Source: Puniceicoccaceae bacterium 5H | Lineage (GTDB): Bacteria; Verrucomicrobiota; Verrucomicrobiia; Opitutales; Oceanipulchritudinaceae | Length of the DNA stretch: 64,000 nt | Assembly: GCA_009772895.1 (NCBI GenBank) | Contig: WOUP01000018.1 | Coordinates: 1 to 64,000 of the forward strand | Reading direction: 5' to 3' | Part shown: positions 39,490-55,537 of the stretch, piece by piece | Layout of the letters: each line of letters begins with the position of its first letter | Position numbering within the stretch: position 1 is the first letter of the stretch | Position numbers and translations under genes: made by a program | Notes under the pieces: model-generated | Told to the model about the DNA's origin: nothing | The model's database searches: none | The model's input: only the letters and a program-made list of their open reading frames with translations

Positions 39490-41223
39490 ATGTCTTTGAA
39501 ACTGACGCGACAACAGTATGCCGAGATGTTCGGCCCCACCGTGGGCGACCGCGTGCGTCTGGCCGACACGGAGCTCTTCGTGGAGGTCGAGCGCGACTGG
39601 ATCGCCGAGAACGGCGGCTACGGCAACGAAGTGAAGTTTGGCGGCGGCAAGGTCATCCGCGACGGCATGGGCCAATCGCCTACGCACCTCGCGGCGGACT
39701 GCCTCGACCTCGTGCTGACCAACGCGCTGCTGCTCGACCCGGTCCACGGCGTCGTGAAGTGCGACATCGGGGTGAAGAACGGTCGCATTGCGGGCGTCGG
39801 CCATGCGGGCAACCCGTTGATCCAGGACGGCGTGACCGAGGGCATGATTGTCGGCGCTTCGACCGAGGTGATTGCGGCGGAAGGCAGCATCGTCACCGCC
39901 GGCGGCATCGACTCGCACATCCACTTTATCTGCCCGCAACAGATTGACGAGGCGCTCGCGAGCGGCGTCACGACCATGATGGGCGGCGGCACCGGCCCCG
40001 CCACAGGCACCAACGCCACCACCTGCACCCCCGGCGCCTGGAACATCCACCGCATGCTCCAGTCTGCCGACGCCTTCCCGATGAACCTCGGCTTCATGGG
40101 CAAGGGCAACAGCTCCAACGCGGACGCCCTGCGCGAGCAGGTAGCCGCCGGGGCGATGGGCCTCAAGCTGCATGAGGACTGGGGCACCACGCCGATGGCG
40201 ATCGACACCTGCCTCTCCGTGGCGGATGAGATGGACATCCAGGTGGCGATCCACACCGACACGCTCAACGAAAGCGGCTTTGTCGAGACGACTATCGCCG
40301 CCTTCAAGGGCCGGGTGATCCACACCTTTCACAGCGAGGGTGCGGGCGGCGGGCACGCGCCGGACATCCTCAAGGTCTGCGGCGAGGCCAACGTGCTGCC
40401 CTCGTCGACCAACCCGACCCGGCCCTTCACGGTCAATACGATCGACGAGCACCTCGACATGCTCATGGTTTGCCACCACCTCGATGCCAGCATCCCCGAG
40501 GACGTGGCCTTTGCCGAGAGCCGCATCCGCCCGCAGACCATCGCGGCCGAGGACATCCTGCACGACCGCGGCGCCATCTCCATCATGGCCAGCGATAGCC
40601 AGGCGATGGGCCGGGTGGGCGAGGTGTTGATCCGCACCTGGCAGACGGCAGACAAGATGAAGCGTCAGTTCGGCGAATTGAAGGCCGAGGCGCATCCGGC
40701 GGCGGACAACTTCCGCGTGCTGCGTTACCTCGCCAAATACACCATCAATCCGGCGATCGCCTGCGGTTTTGCGCAGGAGGTGGGCTCGGTCGAGGTAGGC
40801 AAGCTGGCGGACCTCGTGGTGTTCAAGCCCGCGTTCTTTGGCGTGAAACCGGAGCTGGTGCTGAAGGGCGGCATGATCGCGCTCGCCAACATGGGCGACC
40901 CCAACGCCTCGATCCCTACGCCGCAACCGACCTTTTACCGGCCCCAGTTCGGGGCCTACGCCGGGGCGCGCGAGGCCACCTGCGTCACATTCGTCAGCCA
41001 GGCCGCGCTCGCAGCCGGGGTGCCGGCCCAGCTGGGCTTGCGCAAGCGCTGTGTGGCGGTCCAGAGCTGCCGCCAGCTCTCGAAAAAGGACATGGTGCTC
41101 AACGACTACCTGCCGCAGATTTCCGTCGATCCCGAGACTTACGAGGTGAAGGCCGACGGCGAATTGCTGACTTGTGAGCCCGCGACCGAATTACCGATGG
41201 CGCAACGCTACTTCCTGTTTTAG
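39490..41223 (+). CDS. ureC: Urease alpha (catalytic) subunit
   Basis: A 577-residue alpha subunit that looks complete and active. All nickel-site elements are present: H-x-H in D-S-H-I-H-F (near 138), the lysine to be carbamylated in [10 protein letters not shown] in A-I-H-T-D-T-L-N, H in [15 protein letters not shown], the mobile flap V-C-H-H-L with its catalytic His, and Asp in M-A-S-D-S-Q-A-M-G. It splits urea to ammonia and carbamate in the cytoplasm. Next to a dedicated urea importer it makes a complete urea-nitrogen pathway. Confidence 0.98.
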
Positions 41224-44528: not shown

Positions 44529-45014
44529 CTAGGCTGGCCCCGGTTCCTCGGCGTCGGCGTCCTGCTGGCGTCGGGCGTGCACGGGCGGCAACAACTTGGA
44601 GGTCACCGTGAGGTTGACCGAGCTGACGCCGCGGGTGCCGACGAGTTGGTCGGTAATCGCCTGCAGCCGGTGCACGGGTCCTTGCACCACCCATACTTCC
44701 ATCACGTGTGCATTCTCGAGCAGTACGTGTTGGGATCCAATGACTTCGGCTACGTGATCGCGCTGGATCTTGACGAGCTTCTGCATCAGACCCCGGCGTG
44801 ATTCGTCGTACACGAGTGTCACCATGCCCGCCATGACCTCGGCCGGATCGTTCTGGTAATAGCTGAGCAGCCCCGTCTGGATCATGTCGGCGATGGCCTG
44901 CGAGCGGTTGTGGAAACCGCGGTTCTCCATCATCTCGTCCAGCGACTGCAAGAGGGCGTTGGGCAGCGATATACTGATGCGACTGACGTTCTGTGGGAGG
45001 GGTTCCTGGGACAT
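44529..45014 (-). CDS. NikR-family (RHH plus ACT-like) regulator lacking most canonical nickel ligands
   Basis: A 161-residue regulator from ATG 45014; ATG 45026 would add four residues. The N-terminal ribbon-helix-helix (S-R-I-S-I-S-L-P, M-M-E-N-R-G-F-H-N-R-S-Q-A-I) matches NikR, and the C-terminal domain aligns along its length with E. coli NikR without gaps. At the four high-affinity nickel positions, only His87 is kept: His76 is Arg, His89 is Leu and Cys95 is Val. It therefore probably does not sense nickel by the canonical square-planar site. It converges on the hupE gene with a 5-base gap and is divergent from the second ABC transporter, making it a good candidate for the regulator of the nitrogen units. 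Confidence 0.85.
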   Translation of the reverse strand: MSQEPLPQNVSRISISLPNALLQSLDEMMENRGFHNRSQAIADMIQTGLLSYYQNDPAEVMAGMVTLVYDESRRGLMQKLVKIQRDHVAEVIGSQHVLLENAHVMEVWVVQGPVHRLQAITDQLVGTRGVSSVNLTVTSKLLPPVHARRQQDADAEEPGPA

Positions 45015-45026
45015 CTCAGTGTCCAT

Positions 45027-45306
45027 CGTCGCTGAGCGGGGCGCAACTGGCAAGCCTGCGCGCGATTTCCCCCTACAGTAGAGGCGCCCCCACTGGTCAG
45101 TATTGAAATCCTTACTGTTCAATCTTGCCCATTTTGAATCGAAAAGGTATGGGTGGTATAGCACCTGCAAGTATTAAAAAACGAACAAAACGTAATACTT
45201 GAGCGGTGCGAGCTCGCCACTTCTGCGCGAAAATGAACAGAACGGCGGGCGAATGCTGCCACGGGACGTTTTGGGCAACTTAAGAACACCCATTCCTGCA
45301 ATTGCT
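45027..45306. promoter_or_regulatory. Divergent control region between the NikR-like gene and the ABC importer
   Basis: About 280 bases, AT-rich in the middle, no gene seen. It carries the perfect inverted repeat at 45168-45201, a weaker one (CAGTA...TACTG, 45098-45117) closer to the regulator gene, and a 10-bp palindrome GCGAGCTCGC (45208-45217). I find no guanidine riboswitch pattern in it. Confidence 0.55.
45168..45201. promoter_or_regulatory. Perfect 9-bp inverted repeat, CAAGTATTA / TAATACTTG (candidate nitrogen-unit operator)
   Basis: The arms (45168-45176, 45193-45201) are separated by 16 A-rich bases ending AAAACG. The same TATTA-16-TAATA layout recurs at 48687-48712, and the right half with flanks recurs at 31897-31925. 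Centre-to-centre spacing of two helical turns fits a dimeric or tetrameric regulator such as an RHH protein; the NikR-like gene next door is a candidate. An alternative is that TAATAC is a -10 box. Confidence 0.6.
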
Positions 45307-46305
45307 ATGAACAACCCAATCGCATCGTGGTTCCGTCGGGCCGGTCTCGCCGCCCTGACTCTGATGGTCGGCGCCGTCGCTTCCCTTTCTGCCAAAGAGC
45401 CTCTCAAGATCGCCTACAGTGACTGGCCCGGCTGGGTCGCCTGGGAGATCGGCATCAAGAAGGGCTGGTTCGAGGAAGAGGGCGTGGACGTCGATTTCCT
45501 CTGGTTCGACTACGTCGCCTCGATGGATGCCTACGTTGCGGGCAACGTGGACGCCGTCTGCATGACCAATGGCGACGCGCTCGTGACCGGAGCCACCGGC
45601 AAGCCCTCCGTCGGCATCATCCTGAACGATTTCTCCAACGGCAACGACATGGTCGTGGCTGCCCCGGGCATTGACTCGATCCAAGACCTCAAGGGCAAGA
45701 AGGTCGGCCTCGAAGAAGGCTTCGTGGAGCACCTGATGTTCCTCACCGCGCTGAAGAAGGCCGGCATGAACCCCTCGGACGTCACCATCGTGAACACGCC
45801 GACGAACGAGACGCCGCAGGTGCTCGCTTCCGGTGCCGTGGACGCGATTGCGGCCTGGCAGCCCAACTCCGGCCAGGCGCTCAAGACAGTGGCCGGCTCG
45901 CAGCCGATCTTCACCTCCGCTGACGCCCCGGGCATCATCTACGACTTGCTTTACGTCTCGCCCGAGAGCCTCGAATCGCGTCGCGACGACTGGATGAAGG
46001 TGACGAAGGTCTGGTACCGCATCGTCGACTACCTGCAGGACGAGAGCAATTTCGACGAAGCCCTCGCCATCCTCGCCAGCCGCGTGTCGGTCGACCCGGC
46101 GGAATACGAGCCGTTTTTCCAGGGCACCTACATCCTGAGCTACGACGAGGCGATGGAACGCTGGCAGGATGCCTCCGGTCTGGACTCCGTCTACGGTTCC
46201 AGCCGTGCGGTCGACGCCTTCAACCGTTCCGTCGGCGTTTACAGCGAGCGCCAGGACATCCAGAAGTATCTCGATCCGAGCCTGACCGAAGCGCTCGACC
46301 AGTAA
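45307..46305 (+). CDS. ABC transporter substrate-binding protein (NMT1/taurine-nitrate type), probable guanidine system
   Basis: A 332-residue periplasmic protein from ATG 45307 with a signal peptide ending S-L-S-A-K. It opens [18 protein letters not shown], then [12 protein letters not shown] and the mid-domain [11 protein letters not shown], the pattern of the SsuA/TauA/THI5 fold group that accompanies urea-carboxylase-type clusters. The cluster context favours guanidine, or a related small N compound, as ligand; the sequence alone does not show it. A 72-base GC-rich gap with weak hairpins separates it from the permease. Confidence 0.85.
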
Positions 46306-46377: not shown

Positions 46378-47763
46378 TTGAAACGCGCCTCCCGCAGTTC
46401 CGACACCGTGTCGTGGTTTGCCATCCGCAAGCCCCTCCCGGGCGAGCGACGCCTGCTGCTCACCGTGCTTTCCTTTGTGCTGCCGCTCGCCCTCTGGTGC
46501 CTTGTCAGCTACGTGCCCTTTATCTGGCACCCGGATATCAAGCTGACGGTGGCGGCCGACCGCGAAGGCGTCACGACGGTCTACACCGCCGGTGACCACG
46601 TGGCGCGCTCCTACTTCGATGAATACGCCAATGCCGTGCGCCGGGAAAACGAGGCGGTGCAGGCGGGCGAGGGCACGACCCGCAGCGGTTTTTCGGCCCG
46701 GCGCAACAACGTGAAGATTCTCCGTGCGGTCGCGCCGCTGGCGATCGAGCAAGGCTGGATCTCTGAGAACCAGGTGACGGACAACGCGGCGATCTTCGAC
46801 GTCTGGGAAGGGCTCGCCACGGGCCGCCTCGTTTCGGAAAAACCGGAGCTGACGCCGGAGAATCTCGCGATTGTCCAGGAGGACTGGCAGACGCTGCAGG
46901 CCCATTGGGCGGAGGATCCCGAGCACGAGATGCCGAGCGATCCGCTGCTGAAGCTGATCCCGCAGGGGCGTCTGAGCAACCCCGTCTACCTGCCCGAGCC
47001 GCACGCGGTGCTGCTCACCGGGTGGAAGGACTGGAACGCCGAACCGGCCGAGGGGCGTCCCTCGTTGCCCGAGCGCTACCGGCACTCGCTCTATATCGTG
47101 TTCTCCGGCTTCTTCCTCGCGGCGCTTGCGGGGGTGCCGATCGGCATCCTCAGTGGCACCTACGACTTTTTCTCGAAGCTCTTCGAGCCGTTCATCGACT
47201 TTTTCCGCTACATGCCGGCGCCGGCCTTCAGCACGCTGCTGGTGGCGATCTTTCTCGCGCACGATGCGCCCAAGATCGCGCTGGTCTTCGTCGGCACCTT
47301 CTTTCAGCTCGTGCTCGTCGTGGCCAACACCACACGCCAGCTCGACTATTCGCTGCTGGAGGCCGCGCAGACGCTGGGGGCCAAGCGCCTCGACCTGCTG
47401 CGCCGCGTCATCCTGCCCGGCATTACGCCCTCCCTCTACAACGACTTGCGCATCCTGCTCGGCTGGGCCTGGACGTGGCTCGTCATCGCCGAACTGATCG
47501 GGGTGAAGAGCGGTCTGACGGAGGTGATCGAGACGCAGGGGCGCTGGCGCAACTTCGAGAGCGTCTTTCCTGTCATCATCCTGATTGGCCTGACCGGCTT
47601 CTTTACCGATCAGCTGCTGGCCAACCTGCGCCCACTGCTCTTCCCGTGGACGCCTGAGGCCATCGGCCAGAAACAGGGCCCGCTGGTGCGCTTCTACCGT
47701 TGGGTGACCGACCAGCAGGTGTATGTGCGCGACGACAAACCCACAACTTCCGACCCCGCATGA
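46378..47763 (+). CDS. ABC transporter permease with a long N-terminal periplasmic insert
   Basis: A 461-residue protein starting at TTG 46378. One membrane helix (residues about 20-45) is followed by about 185 hydrophilic residues lacking a recognised domain, then the standard BPD-type permease domain (240-430) with Y-M-P-A-P-A-F and the EAA loop [14 protein letters not shown]. Most SsuC/TauC permeases are about 260 residues, so the insert is unusual, although versions exist in urea-carboxylase-linked clusters. Its stop overlaps the ATPase start. Confidence 0.85.
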
Positions 47764-48662
47764 GCGACCACCTCGACCTTCCCGATTACCGCGAACAGAG
47801 CCCGGAAGTCGCCGCACGCTTCGCCTCCATCCGGCAGCGCCCGGTGAAGCTGGAGGTGTGCGGGCTGGAGAAGCGCTTCCATTCGCCCGAGGGCGAGCGC
47901 GTGGTGCTGCAAGACATCTCCTTCAAGGCCCACCGGCGCGAATTCATCTCCATCATCGGCCCTTCCGGCTGCGGCAAATCCACGTTGATCCGTATCCTGG
48001 CCGGCCTCGAAACCATCTCGGGAGGCGACGTGCTGCTGGAGGGCAACGCCGTCAAGGGGCCCAGTCGCGAGCGCGGCATGGTCTTCCAGGGCTATACGCT
48101 TTTCCCGTGGCTGACGGTGAAGAAGAACGTGATGTTCGGCCTCGAAGTCAGCGGGCGCTCCGGGCCGGCGGTCGAGAGCGAGGCGATGGACTGGATCAAT
48201 CTCGTCGGGCTCGCCCGCTATGCCAACGCCTATCCCAGCGAGCTTTCCGGCGGCATGAAGCAGCGCGTGGCCATTGCGCGTTCGCTGGCCAATCAGCCGC
48301 AGATCCTCTTCATGGACGAGCCCTTCGGCGCGCTCGATGCCCAGACGCGGGCGCAGATGCAGGCCTACCTGTTGCAAATCTGGAAAAACGTCGACGTCAC
48401 CATCCTCTTCGTCACGCACGACCTCGACGAAGCGATCTACCTTTCCGACCGCATCCTCGTGCTCAAGGCCAACCCGGGCGAAATCCAGGAGTTCATCGAA
48501 GTGCCGGTGCCGCGCCCGCGCGATCCGGAGCAGTTCATCAGCCCGACCTTCCTCGCGACCAAAAACCGCCTCGAACACCTCATCCACCCGCGTCAGCCCG
48601 GCCAGGAGCAGGCCCGCCTGCCCATCACCAAGATGACCGCGGCGGGAGACGAGGTGGAGTAG
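47760..48662 (+). CDS. ABC transporter ATP-binding protein (SsuB/TauB type)
   Basis: A 300-residue ATPase, ATGA overlap with the permease. Walker [11 protein letters not shown] near 75, Q-loop [10 protein letters not shown], signature [10 protein letters not shown], Walker [13 protein letters not shown] and switch V-T-H-D-L-D-E-A. It completes the importer with the two genes before it. Fifty bases of AT-rich sequence follow before the DUF1989 gene. Confidence 0.92.
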
Positions 48663-48683
48663 GCTTGCCTTTTTTGACTTAAA

Positions 48684-48712
48684 TAGTATTACAAAAATAT
48701 AAAAACGTAATA
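48684..48712. promoter_or_regulatory. TATTA-16-TAATA element abutting the DUF1989 gene start
   Basis: TAGTATTA (48684-48691) and TAATA (48708-48712) are spaced exactly as in the element at 45168-45201, with a similar A-rich spacer ending AAAACG. The right half touches the ATG at 48713, so regulator binding could block translation or transcription initiation of this unit; the gene has no Shine-Dalgarno. Confidence 0.55.
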
Positions 48713-49456
48713 ATGAATCAGCTTTCACCCATTTCCGAAACCGACCTGCTGCACCGGGAGACGATCCGCGGCGGCGGCATGTGGTCCAAGGTGATCGGGC
48801 GCGGCAAGACCATGCGCCTGACCGATCTCGAGGGCGGCGCCAACGTCGGCCTCCTGCTCTACAATGCCTTTGAGCGCCAGGAGCGTTACAACATGCCCGA
48901 CACGTTGAAGGGCCAGCACATCTTTTTCCTGACCGCGCCGTATTGCCTGCACTCCGACATGGGGCGCATCCTGTGCTCCGTCACCGGTGATTCGTCTGGC
49001 TGGCACGATACGGTCTGCGGTTGCAGCGATGCCAAGCTCGTGCGCCAGAAGTATGGCGAAAAGTCCTACCAGCAGGCGCACAACGACTTTCACCGCAACG
49101 GCCGGGAGTGCTTTCTGATCGAGCTGGCCAAGTGGGGCCTCGGCGAAAAGGACCTCGTGCCCAACCTGAACCTCTTCAGCAAGGTCGTCTCGGACGAAGA
49201 GGGCGTGCTGTCCTTCGACGCGAGCCACGCCAAAGCCGGGGCCGCGATCGACCTGCGCTGCGAGCTCGACACCCTCGTCGTCTTCAACACCTGCCAGCAC
49301 CCGCTCGACCCGAATCCGGAATACGCGCCCAAGCCGGTGCAGCTGGAGGTCTACCGCAGCGCGCCGGTGGCCGAAGACGACCCCTGTCGCCTGTCGCGCC
49401 CCGAGAACGGCCGCGCCTTCCAGAATACCGAGGTCTACAACCGCCTGCGCTTCTAG
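48713..49456 (+). CDS. DUF1989 protein, carboxyguanidine deiminase subunit (urea carboxylase-associated protein 2)
   Basis: A 247-residue protein. DUF1989 traits: [48 protein letters not shown], and H-N-D-F-H-R-N-G. Proteins of this pair, long called urea carboxylase-associated, were shown to form the heteromeric carboxyguanidine deiminase that converts carboxyguanidine to allophanate. Cys/His residues here are compatible with the zinc site of the family. It is followed by the second subunit after 37 bases. Confidence 0.9.
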
Positions 49457-50192: not shown

Positions 50193-53100
50193 ATGTTTCA
50201 GAAAGTCCTCATCGCCAATCGCGGCGAAATCGCCTGCCGTATCATCCGCACCCTGCGCCAGCTCGGCGTCCAGTCCGTCGCCATCTACTCGGATGCGGAC
50301 GCCTACGCCGCCCACGTGGGGCTGGCGGACGAAGCCGTGCGCGTCGGTCCGGCCCCGGTGGCCGAGAGCTACCTGAATACCAACGCGATCCTGCAGGCGG
50401 TGCGCGAAACCGGTGCGCAGGCGGTGCATCCGGGCTACGGGCTATTGAGTGAAAACGCGGCCTTTGCCGAAGCTTGCGAGGCCGCCGGCGTGACTTTTAT
50501 CGGGCCGACGCCGGAGCAGATGCGCCAGTTTGGCCTCAAGCATACCGCGCGTGAAATCGCCCAACAGGCCGCGGTGCCGCTCGTGCCCGGCACCGGCGTG
50601 CTCGAGGGCGTGGACGACGCGCTCCGGCAGGCGGGCGAGATCGGCTATCCGGTCATGCTCAAGAGCAGTGCGGGCGGCGGGGGCATCGGGATGCGGCTCT
50701 GCCGCGACGCCCGCGAGCTGGAGCAGGCCTATGCGGCGGTCGAACGCCTGTCGCGCAACAACTTCAACGACGCCGCGCTCTTTCTCGAAAAATACCTGGA
50801 ACGCGCCCGCCACATCGAAGTCCAGCTCTTCGGCGACGGGCAGGGCAGGGTGGTCACGCTCGGCGAGCGCGATTGCTCCGTCCAGCGCCGTAACCAGAAG
50901 GTGATCGAGGAAACGCCCGCGCCGGGCATCACCGGCGAGCTGCGCGTGGCCCTCGCGGAGGCCGCCCGTCGGCTGGGCGAACGCATCGCCTACCGCTCGG
51001 CGGGCACGGTGGAGTTTATCTACGATGTCGGCTCCGGGCAGTTCTATTTCCTCGAAGTCAACACCCGCTTGCAGGTCGAGCACGGCGTAACGGAACTCGT
51101 CACCGGCGTGGACCTCGTGGCATGGATGGTCCGCCTCGCGGCGGGTGGATGGCAACCGCCCGCGCAGGAGGAGATCCGCAGCGTCGGCCACGCGATCCAG
51201 ACCCGCCTCTACGCCGAGGATCCGCTGAAGCATTTCCAGCCCAGCACCGGTGAATTGACCGAGGCCCGTTTTCCGGAGTGGACGCGGGTCGACCGCTGGA
51301 TCGAGCGCGGCACGGAAGTCAGCCCCTACTACGATCCGATGCTGGCCAAGGTGCTGGTGCAGGGCGATGACCGCAAGCAGGCCATCGGCCGGATGCAGCG
51401 CGCGCTGGCGGAGACCCGTGTGGCCGGGGTGGAGACCAACCTCGAGTTCACGCGCCAGATTTTCGACGAGTCTGCCTTCCAGCGGGGCCAGGTGCACACG
51501 CGCTTCCTCGAAGGCTTTGCCTACGTCAGCCGTACGGTAGATGTGCTGGCGCCGGGCACCTTGACGACAGTGCAGGACTATCCAGGCCGTGTCGGCTATT
51601 GGGACGTCGGCGTGCCGCCGTCCGGCCCGATGGACAGCCTGGCCTTCCGCCTGGGCAACCGCATCCTCGGCAACGACAAGGCCGCGGCGGGCCTCGAGAT
51701 CACCCTGACCGGCCCGACGCTGAAGTTCCAGGGGGCCACCACGATTTGCCTGACGGGCGCAGAGATCGAAGCAACGCTCGACGGCACCCCCGTGCCCCAC
51801 TGGCAGGCTGTGCCGGTGGCGGCGGGGGCCACTTTGACGCTCGGCAAGGTCACGGGCACCGGTTGCCGGGCCTATCTGGCGTTCGCGGGCGGCCTGGATG
51901 TGCCGGACTACCTCGGCAGCAAGGCGACCTTTACCCTCGGCAAGTTCGGGGGGCACAACGGCCGCACACTGCAGGCGGGCGACGTCCTGCACCTGAGCGA
52001 AGCCGTGGAGGCCGACGCCGCCCCGCTGCCCAGCGCCCTCCAGCCGCACTACGGCGACACCTGGCAGGTGCGCGTGCTCTACGGCCCGCATGGCGCGCCG
52101 GACTACTTTACGGACGAAGACATCGACATGTTCTTCGCGACCGATTGGGAGGTGCACTACAACTCCGCGCGCACCGGCGTGCGCCTCATCGGTCCGAAGC
52201 CCAAATGGGCACGCGCCGACGGCGGCGAGGCGGGGCTGCATCCCTCGAACATCCACGACAATGCCTACGCCGTCGGCGCGGTCGACTTTACCGGCGACAT
52301 GCCGATCATCCTCGGCCCCGACGGCCCCAGCCTGGGCGGCTTCGTCTGCCCGGCGACGATCGTGGCCGCCGACCTCTGGAAAATGGGCCAGTTCCGCCCG
52401 GGCGACAAGGTGCGCTTTGTGCGCGTCGATCATCAGGAGGCCGACCGCCTGCTGGAGGAACAGGAGCGCATGCTGGTGACCCTGCAGGCCCCGACCGCCC
52501 CCGCCGCCGCGCCGAGTCAAGGCGATCCGGCGCTCATCACCCAGCTCGAGCCCAACGCCGACCGCCGCCTCGCGGTGACCTACCGCCGCTCGGGCGACCA
52601 CGCGGTGCTGATCGAATACGGCGAGATGGTGCTCGACCTCAACCTGCGCTTCCGCGTACACGCCTTGATGCAGGCCCTGCAGGAGCGTCCGCTGCCCGGC
52701 TTGCTCGAGCTGACGCCGGGTATCCGCTCCCTCCAGGTGCGCTACGACCCCCTGCAACTCAAGCTTTCCGCGCTGATGGATCACCTGCTGGCGCTCGAGG
52801 CGGAACTGCCGTCGGTCACCGAGATGACGCTGTCCACCCGCATCGTGCACCTGCCGCTGTCCTGGGACGACGAGCAGACGCAGCTCGCGATTCGCAAATA
52901 CGACCAGATCGTGCGCAAGAACGCGCCTTGGGCTCCTAGCAACATCGAGTTCATCCGCCGTATCAACGGGCTGGATTCGGTCGAGGACGTGAAGGACATC
53001 GTGTTCAACGCCAGCTACCTCGTGATGGGGCTGGGCGACGTCTACCTCGGCGCGCCGGTGGCCACGCCCATCGACCCGCGCCACCGCCTCGTCACGACCA

Positions 53101-53801
53101 AATACAACCCCGCCCGCACGTGGACGCCGGAGAACGCGGTCGGCATCGGCGGCGCCTACCTCTGCGTCTACGGCATGGAGGGCCCCGGCGGCTACCAGTT
53201 TGTGGGCCGCACGGTGCAGGTGTGGAACCGCCAGCGCACCACCCCTTATTTCGAGCCTGGCAAGCCCTGGCTGCTGCGCTTTTTCGACCAGATCCGTTTC
53301 TATCCGGTCAGCCACGACGAGCTGATGCAGATGCGCGCGGACTTCCCGCACGGGCGCTTTTCGCCCAAGATCGAGGAAACGACCTTCGATCTGGGCGACT
53401 ATCAGCGCTTCCTGCGCGACAACGCCGACAGCATCCACGCCTTCAAGCAGCACCAGCAGGCCTCCTTTGAGGCCGAACGGGATCGTTGGGTACAAAACGG
53501 TCAGGCGACCTTCGAGGCCGAAGACGGCTTTGCGGACGGCATCCTCGACGAAGCCGAGGAGCTGCCCGAGGGGTGTGAGCTGCTCACCGCCCAGGTGACG
53601 GGCAATGTCTGGAAGATCACCGCCGAGCCCGGCCAACGCATCTCCGCTGGCGACCCGCTGGTGGTGCTCGAATCCATGAAGATGGAGGTCGGCTGCCCCG
53701 CGCCGCAGGACTGCGAGGTGGTCGAAGTCCGTTGCCACGAAGGCACCGCCGTGCAGACCGGCCAGGCCCTCTGCGTCATCCGTCCGCTCGCCACCGCCTG
53801 A
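50193..53801 (+). CDS. Biotin-dependent urea/guanidine carboxylase
   Basis: A 1202-residue multidomain enzyme. Residues 1-445: biotin carboxylase ([25 protein letters not shown]-grasp [19 protein letters not shown]). About 455-765: KipA-like (AHS2) half, [14 protein letters not shown]. About 795-1085: KipI-like half, [10 protein letters not shown] then G-Q-type [12 protein letters not shown]-terminal biotin carrier with E-S-M-K-M-E (Lys 1163). Enzymes adjacent to DUF1989 pairs are mostly guanidine carboxylases; true urea carboxylases usually lack that pair and urease. I therefore favour guanidine, giving carboxyguanidine. Confidence 0.9.
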
Positions 53802-53812
53802 AAACGCCCGCC

Positions 53813-55537
53813 ATGCCTCAATCGCTCGACCTCACCAGCCTCCGCGCCGCCTATTGTCAGGGCCGCCTCACGCCGCGCCAGCTTCTCGCCCAACTCGATG
53901 CCCGCTGGGCGGAAGTGGACGACCCGGCGATCTACATCCATCGGCTGACGCAGGAGGAGCTGGAGCCCTACCTGCAACGGCTAGACCAATCCACCCCCGC
54001 AGACCTGCCGCTCTACGGCATCCCTTTCGTAATCAAGGACAATATCGACCTCGCGGGCGTGCCCACTACCGCCGCCTGCGAGGCCTACCGCTACGTGCCG
54101 GAGGAGTCGGCCCATGTGGTGCAGCGGCTGATCGCGCTCGGCGCGATCCCGATGGGCAAGGGCAACCTCGACCAGTTTGCGACCGGCCTCGTCGGCGTGC
54201 GCTCGCCCTACGGCGTGCCGCGCAATGCCCTGTCGCCCGAGCACATCCCAGGCGGTTCCAGCTCGGGTTCGGCGGTGGCCGTGGCTCAAGGGCTGGCGAG
54301 CTTTTCCCTGGGCACCGACACGGCGGGTTCGGGGCGCGTGCCGGCGGCCTTCAATCACCTCTTCGGCGTTAAACCGACGCGCGGCATCGTCAGCGCGCGC
54401 GGCGTGGTGCCGGCGTGTCGCTCGCTGGACTGCGTTTCGATCTTTGCCCTCAACGCCACCGACGCGCAAACGCTGCTGCAGGCCTGCACGGACTACGATC
54501 CGGCAGACGCCTATGCGCGCCCGGACGCGACGCCCGCCTACCCGGAGCACGCCACGCCCGTGGTTGGGGTCGTGGCGCCGGAGCAGTGCGCCTTTTTCGG
54601 CAATGCGGAATACGAGCGCCTGTATCGCGAGCTGCTTGCGCGGCTGGAGGCGCAGGGCGTACGCACGCAGGTGGTCGACTTCACCGTCTTCACCGAGGCC
54701 GCACGCCTGCTCTACGAGGGCCCGTGGGTCAGCGAACGCTATTGCGCGATCGAGGAGCTGATCGAGCGGGACCCGGAGGCGCTCCACCCGGTCACGCGCC
54801 GGATTATCGCCGGCGGCAAAGACCTGAAGGCCCCCGACCTCTTCAAGGCCATGTATCGCCTGGAGGAATTGAAGCGCGCCGCCGAGGCCGTCTGGCGGTC
54901 GGTGGACGTCTTGCTGACCCCCACCGCCGGCACGATCTACACGCAGGCAGAAGTCGAGGCCGACCCGGTCCAGACCAACCGCAACCTGGGCTACTACACC
55001 AATTTCATGAACCTGCTGGATTGCTGCGCTCTGGCGGCTCCGGCCGGTTTTACGGCTCAGGGACTTGCGTTTGGCGTGACGCTGGTCGGCCCGGCTTTCA
55101 GCGACCGGCGTCTGCTGGATCTTGCAGGGCAGCTGCCGCTCGAGCCCGAGAGCACCCAGCCCATCGTGGTCTGCGGCGCGCACCTGCAAGGCCTGCCGCT
55201 CAACCATCAGCTGACGGATCTCGGCGCGACGCGGCGCGAAACGACCTATACCGCGCCCGTCTATCGTGCGTATGCTTTACCGGGAGCCGTACCCAAGCCG
55301 GGTCTGGTGCGCGTATCCGCAGGTGGGGCCGCACAGCAGGTGGAAGTCTGGGATCTGCCGACGCGCCACTGGGGCACCTTCGCCGCTCAGATCGCATCCC
55401 CGCTCGGCCTGGGCTGGGTCGAACTGGCCGACGGCCGCCGTGTGCTCGGTTTCCTCTGCGAAGCCGTTGCCACCGCCGACGCCGAAGACATTACCGTCCA
55501 CGGAGGATGGCGTAACTACCTGCAGTCCAAAGGCTAG
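53813..55537 (+). CDS. atzF: Allophanate hydrolase
   Basis: A 574-residue amidase-signature enzyme from ATG 53813. Catalytic triad: Lys 75 in F-V-I-K-D-N-I-D, cis-Ser in G-G-S-S-S-G-S (near 150) and nucleophile Ser 173 in T-D-T-A-G-S-G-R-V-P-A. The C-terminal 130 residues are the extra AtzF-type domain that finishes conversion of N-carboxycarbamate. It turns allophanate into ammonia and CO2, the last step after the carboxylase and deiminase. It begins 11 bases after the carboxylase stop. Confidence 0.94.
   Translation: MPQSLDLTSLRAAYCQGRLTPRQLLAQLDARWAEVDDPAIYIHRLTQEELEPYLQRLDQSTPADLPLYGIPFVIKDNIDLAGVPTTAACEAYRYVPEESAHVVQRLIALGAIPMGKGNLDQFATGLVGVRSPYGVPRNALSPEHIPGGSSSGSAVAVAQGLASFSLGTDTAGSGRVPAAFNHLFGVKPTRGIVSARGVVPACRSLDCVSIFALNATDAQTLLQACTDYDPADAYARPDATPAYPEHATPVVGVVAPEQCAFFGNAEYERLYRELLARLEAQGVRTQVVDFTVFTEAARLLYEGPWVSERYCAIEELIERDPEALHPVTRRIIAGGKDLKAPDLFKAMYRLEELKRAAEAVWRSVDVLLTPTAGTIYTQAEVEADPVQTNRNLGYYTNFMNLLDCCALAAPAGFTAQGLAFGVTLVGPAFSDRRLLDLAGQLPLEPESTQPIVVCGAHLQGLPLNHQLTDLGATRRETTYTAPVYRAYALPGAVPKPGLVRVSAGGAAQQVEVWDLPTRHWGTFAAQIASPLGLGWVELADGRRVLGFLCEAVATADAEDITVHGGWRNYLQSKG

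Follow-up and report, generated by a model that had tools for sequence, protein, structure and literature searches.

A NikR-like protein with altered nickel-ligand positions as a candidate regulator of guanidine genes

A DNA stretch of 64,000 nucleotides (hereafter the window) encodes a NikR-like RHH-ACT protein that very probably acts as a nickel-independent regulator of the adjacent guanidine gene cluster, binding at two predicted operators within that cluster. The leading guess for its effector is guanidine or an intermediate of the guanidine pathway, and this part of the reading has roughly an even chance of being correct. The proposal is based on an alignment and phylogenetic analysis of the protein, on the conserved linkage of its relatives to guanidine genes, and on a predicted operator that recurs at these loci.

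A NikR-like protein and its subfamily

The regulator gene (44529..45014, minus strand) is an open reading frame of 161 amino acids with an ATG start and a stop codon at 44529. A phmmer search aligned residues 11-135 to residues 2-126 of Escherichia coli NikR (zero gaps, E=5e-14) and residues 11-139 to residues 4-132 of Pyrococcus horikoshii NikR (E=4e-21). Positions 76, 87, 89, and 95 are the nickel ligands of E. coli NikR (PMC7055735), and the residues H76, H87, H89, and C95 correspond to R85, H96, L98, and V104 in the window protein, which confirms the ungapped R-H-L-V reading of the original prediction. A sequencing artefact was ruled out because an orthologue from the same genus (88% identity) carries the identical four residues. 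The RHH domain and the ACT-like core had been described as preserved, and this description holds: the PF08753 NikR_C domain scores 75 bits (cut-off 22), the RHH_1 domain falls slightly below its cut-off (20.1, cut-off 20.5), and the predicted fold matches NikR. The AlphaFold model was built from a shallow alignment (mean pLDDT 64; 75-86 across residues 61-130) and displays RHH helices and an ACT-like fold with best PDB matches that are all NikR; it confirms the fold and is too weak to define a pocket. The window regulator has the architecture of the NikR family (RHH N-terminus and NikR_C ACT-like domain, ungapped over the full length) and lacks the nickel site formed by His76, His87, His89, and Cys95. 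The warning that automated naming as NikR would mislead points to a real risk, as the protein passes the NCBIfam equivalog NF003381 (“nickel-responsive transcriptional regulator NikR”), but the risk is marginal: the margin is 1.5 bits and the protein fails TIGR02793 nikR (80.6 vs. 175 needed). No further NikR homologue was found in the 4.1 Mb genome of the window, and a contig scan with the single window protein as query returned one distant canonical NikR and nothing else.

Relatives were sought in the class (141 genomes), the order (273 genomes), and the phylum (241 genomes), and up to 20 kb was retrieved around the matches; six weak matches in the class sample were left out of the retrieved set. 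The comparison set consisted of 43 intact relatives without Cys95 (including the window protein), with 21 canonical HHHC NikRs as controls. A tree containing 42 of the 43 variants (one near-identical copy was omitted) placed variants and canonical NikRs on the two sides of one branch with a support of 100/99, and the window regulator lies across this branch from the canonical cluster. Judged by these sequences, the window protein is a member of a distinct NikR-like subfamily.

The ligand positions within the subfamily range from ligand-rich patterns (HHHY, HHHS, HLHS, HRHS, and YHHS) through intermediate ones (HHLT, HRLT, and YHLT) to ligand-poor ones (RHLT, RHQT, RHLI, and RHLV), with RQLV and RQMN members retaining none of the four ligands. 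Metal binding might persist in the basal members, whose ligand positions retain three histidines (HHHY) or two to three (HHHS, HLHS). Near-invariant and specific to the subfamily are Arg23, Glu91, and Gln102 (E. coli numbering) and a proline in a C-terminal extension; within the subfamily alignment, Gln is found at position 102 in 42/42 and Glu at position 91 in 41/42 sequences.

A tblastn search of plasmid records identified further members in Novosphingobium, Sphingobium, Asticcacaulis, and Acinetobacter that are annotated, where at all, as CopG family or transcriptional regulator. Their ligand positions read AHFS, LHFS, QHQV, or QHQI, and in a tree that includes them they fall outside the canonical clade and form two groups. 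No published function was found for the CopG-family proteins that are located beside “urea carboxylase” genes in these four genera.

Linkage to the guanidine pathway

Genes for urease and urea transport are located on one side of the regulator gene and a uca-type ABC transporter on the other, in agreement with its predicted place between a nickel-enzyme operon and an importer. On the plus strand follow the genes for the substrate-binding protein (NMT1/SsuA-like, 45307..46305), permease (46378..47763), and ATPase (47760..48662) of the transporter, UAAP1 (TIGR03425, 48713..49456) and UAAP2 (TIGR03424, 49494..50141) of the carboxyguanidine deiminase subunit families, a guanidine carboxylase (TIGR02712, 1897 bits, 50193..53801), and an allophanate hydrolase (53810..55537). 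UAAP1 and UAAP2 have been placed in the guanidine pathway as subunits of carboxyguanidine deiminase (PMC11410670), and the target cluster contains both deiminase subunits and the allophanate hydrolase. Asp residues at Kluyveromyces lactis positions 1330 and 1584 are the criterion for a guanidine carboxylase, and Asp versus Asn at the K. lactis N1330 position separates guanidine from urea carboxylases (PMC11410670). The window carboxylase carries Asp at both positions (D698 = K. lactis N1330 and D949 = D1584). The importer is better called a guanidine importer than a urea importer because the adjoining carboxylase has the guanidine-type Asp, and its earlier designation as a probable guanidine importer stands. 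Within the neighbouring urease operon, an Rfam match to the 5' ureB sRNA is located antisense to ureC (39654-39952, minus strand; also at loci L035, L037, and L039), which probably reflects conserved ureC coding sequence and no real sRNA.

All 43 intact variants in the phylum adjoin UAAP1, UAAP2, and carboxylase genes or uca-type ABC transporter genes, and none of the 21 canonical HHHC NikRs adjoins guanidine carboxylase or uca transporter genes. Among the 141 genomes of the class, 16 contain a urea/guanidine carboxylase (15 above the TIGR02712 cut-off and one cut by a contig end) and the same 16 contain an intact variant. The guanidine-type Asp is present in every readable neighbouring carboxylase (38/38), and the proteobacterial members likewise adjoin UAAP1/2, a guanidine-type carboxylase, and the transporter. 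One genome (G127) serves as a control: it carries a guanidine-type cluster and also a second carboxylase (L172, C4) of the Asn/urea type, which is located with an allophanate hydrolase beside UrtABC. This urea-type locus contains neither a NikR-like gene nor the operator described below, and UAAP genes were undetected. Urea as the substrate of the window pathway was ruled out by Asp698 together with the G127 control.

Decayed copies were also encountered. A truncated member gene in G075 lacks neighbouring guanidine genes, and a broken regulator gene at ~10188-10700 of L073 (genome G166) is located beside an allophanate hydrolase remnant; the regulator and the pathway appear to have decayed jointly in this genome.

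Operators, promoter elements, and riboswitches

Two operators of the form AGTATTA-N16-TAATACT are predicted in the window, each with two inverted half-sites separated by N16 as in the geometry of NikR operators. Operator 1 (AAGTATTA-N16-TAATACTT, 45169..45200) is a perfect dyad in the intergenic region that separates the regulator from the substrate-binding protein gene, and operator 2 (TAGTATTA-N16-TAATAATG, 48684..48715) overlaps the UAAP1 start codon. In a set of 78 upstream regions, perfect 7-bp dyads are enriched at spacings of 14 and 16 (11 and 7 dyads vs. ~1.3 expected), and an unsupervised palindromic EM search recovered the motif AGTATTAC-N14-GTAATACT with a log-likelihood of 337 compared with 56-73 for shuffled sequences. 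Written in the spacing of the E. coli NikR operator, GTATGA-N16-TCATAC (PMC7055735), the motif becomes GTATTA-N16-TAATAC. A site matrix trained on loci from the order and class of the window identified 14 sites scoring ≥15 in the held-out Proteobacteria (0.3 expected) and 11 such sites in the phylum loci outside the training set (0.1 expected). A dyad by chance was rejected based on the spacing enrichment, the motif likelihood, and the held-out sites.

The 4.1 Mb genome contains two operator sites with at most one mismatch and both are located at guanidine genes in the window, so that nickel uptake and nickel enzyme genes do not appear among the targets. A scan of this genome found no near-perfect operator near the urease or HupE genes or at nickel transporter genes; regulation of urease by the window protein is unsupported, the near-perfect operator being absent there. 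Operator 1 and the element preceding it form a conserved island in an intergenic region that has otherwise diverged from the relative within the genus.

The sites of some ligand-richer members (L046, L043, and L040) either match the E. coli operator exactly or are hybrids with it. Several canonical NikRs of the phylum (among L084-L098 and L166-L171) appear to use a GTGTTAC-N14-GTAACAC dyad, or one closely resembling it, at the start of their own genes, as seen in L092, L166, L167, and L168. From the E. coli-like sites and the canonical dyads it would follow that DNA recognition was largely retained across the subfamily while the metal site was lost.

A sigma-54 promoter-like element (TGGTATAGCACCTGCA, 45154..45169, plus strand) ends at the start of operator 1; it reads TGGCATAGGTCCTGCA in the relative from the same genus, and sigma-54 is encoded in the window genome. 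Since the element ends where the operator begins, operator 1 would cover the transcription start, where repressors classically bind. A sigma-54 (-24/-12) element is located within 60 bp of 50 out of 95 operator sites (~5 expected), and in a strand-aware analysis the end of most of these elements falls in the interval from 1 bp inside the operator to 13 bp before its start. In a minority of relatives the operator is located upstream of the element (gaps of -45 to -69), an arrangement that would suit activation or a divergent promoter. Operator 2 of the window has no sigma-54-like element, and scans for sigma-70 promoters and terminators around the operators found nothing. In the stretch 48674-48713, where operator 2 overlaps the UAAP1 start codon, a TTGACT-N18-TATAAA sequence is located upstream; this arrangement would imply a leaderless transcript or one with a very short leader.

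In Rfam searches, neither the window nor 14 variant loci of its class contained a guanidine riboswitch. The guanidine-I riboswitch was found in 0/141 class genomes under stricter filters that may lose weak matches, and the guanidine-II riboswitch is present in a few genomes, away from the variant loci. At three Acinetobacter loci, the UAAP1 leader carries a guanidine-I riboswitch with the operator immediately upstream of it, which ties the operator independently to guanidine.

Two additional gene neighborhoods were observed. Creatininase-family and glutamine-synthetase-like genes are present at L032 (13983-16206), L042 (7492-9700), L045 (10332-12644), L078, L080, and L158, where the pair separates the uca transporter from the regulator or UAAP1. 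An extra operator is found in this stretch at L032, L068, and L072, and the one at L032 immediately precedes the glutamine-synthetase-like gene; these observations suggest that creatinine or methylguanidine is used within the same regulon. In sphingomonads, operators are also located between the transporter and a divergently oriented gene for a TonB-dependent receptor (L177, 6180; L178, 5950 and 6247; L182, 5832 and 6167; L186; L187), making the receptor a candidate outer-membrane importer of guanidine.

Proposed regulation, alternatives, and comparison with known systems

The preferred reading is that the window protein is a repressor of the NikR family that does not use nickel and that is dedicated to the local regulation of guanidine import and degradation. 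Its RHH domains would bind the paired half-sites of the common motif at operator 1, before the transporter operon and over the predicted start site of the sigma-54 promoter, and at operator 2, before the deiminase, carboxylase, and hydrolase genes. Transcription would need both activation under nitrogen limitation through sigma-54 and release of the repressor, which would dissociate from the DNA in the presence of guanidine or a compound of its pathway. We infer repression, from the position of the operator, as well as the use of sigma-54 and the independence from nickel. The inducer, most likely guanidine or a pathway intermediate, would be bound by the ACT-like domain. A polar pocket close to the old metal interface is suggested by Arg76 together with the conserved Glu and Gln. 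A change of effector had been considered likely from the window protein alone, and the separate clade (100/99), the graded ligand loss, the gene linkage, and the common operator strongly support it.

A bolder version regards the subfamily as the first class of transcription factors known to sense guanidine, with a metal pocket converted in steps, sigma-54 promoters, and a role that replaces the guanidine-I riboswitch in the class. The conversion would broadly have affected Cys95 first, then His89 and His76, and finally His87, turning the pocket into a receptor for guanidinium or its immediate metabolite. This version is tentative and falls a little short of an even chance.

Three other readings of the effector were weighed. 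The protein could be a local repressor that adds a second nitrogen input by responding to a general nitrogen signal or to urea or allophanate, which is possible although unlikely. The Acinetobacter transcripts that combine the operator with a guanidine-I riboswitch favor this reading, as guanidine is already sensed there by the RNA and the protein could respond to something else, two different signals being sensible; the urease and urea-transporter genes adjoining the regulator in the window point the same way. However, the urea-type carboxylase locus of G127 lacks both regulator and operator, sigma-54 would already supply the nitrogen status, and two guanidine sensors on one operon are already known (Gd-I and Gd-II, PMC12508155).

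Alternatively, the protein might have no effector, with Arg76 replacing the metal as a tie across the interface, possibly through a salt bridge to the conserved Glu97, and constitutive binding setting a basal level of expression or an architecture. The strong conservation of the RHH residues and the operators is consistent with this improbable reading, but the subfamily-specific invariant residues kept by the ACT-like domain (Gln102, Glu91, and the C-terminal proline) suggest a retained ligand or allosteric function.

Least probable, with only a slight chance, is a protein that still senses nickel or another metal through an altered site of H78, H87, H94, and acidic residues, shutting off the guanidine route, which needs no nickel, whenever nickel-dependent enzymes are able to function: the regulator gene is located beside the urease operon, the three histidines are all present in the window protein, basal members keep most of the ligand histidines and some of their operators match or resemble that of E. 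coli, but the RQMN and RQLV members lack all ligands and His94 and keep the gene linkage, and urease and HupE have no near-perfect operator nearby. The window protein does have the alternate His78/His94 site named in the original prediction, but its sister clade (Y/Y, H/Y) and others lack it. Between the effectors that this prediction had offered, another metal or a small nitrogen compound, the nitrogen compound fits the whole subfamily better because of the members with zero ligands.

Under the preferred reading of a nickel-independent guanidine regulator, a candidate protein family, a DNA site, and promoters can be named in at least two phyla, which opens the question to bench testing. Extant members of the subfamily form graded intermediates, their metal-sensing site apparently dismantled and their DNA recognition kept, and proteins labelled NikR or CopG in guanidine clusters would be misnamed or under-named. 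The open-access literature yielded no previous description of a regulator of the NikR or CopG type for guanidine or urea carboxylase genes, and the window protein is a candidate for the first regulatory protein of the guanidine pathway, one that would act in bacteria mostly without the guanidine riboswitches known to switch these genes.

The window protein shares the domain order, an ungapped alignment, and the fold with the nickel-responsive RHH-ACT repressor NikR of E. coli, Helicobacter pylori, and P. horikoshii, and its half-sites are likewise split by N16 (GTATTA-N16-TAATAC vs. GTATGA-N16-TCATAC in E. coli, PMC7055735). It differs from NikR in the substitutions at three nickel-ligand positions out of four (as many as all four in relatives), in its predicted guanidine gene targets, and in the extended C-terminus with a conserved proline. 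The CopG-family RHH proteins of Novosphingobium, Sphingobium, Asticcacaulis, and Acinetobacter resemble it in tree position, linkage, and operator but differ at the ligand positions (AHFS, LHFS, QHQV, and QHQI vs. RHLV). Control by guanidine-I and guanidine-II riboswitches concerns the same targets (carboxylase, UAAP1/2, ABC transporter, and allophanate hydrolase), whereas the window cluster would use a protein and a predicted DNA operator in place of RNA; in Acinetobacter, the guanidine-I riboswitch and the operator share one leader.
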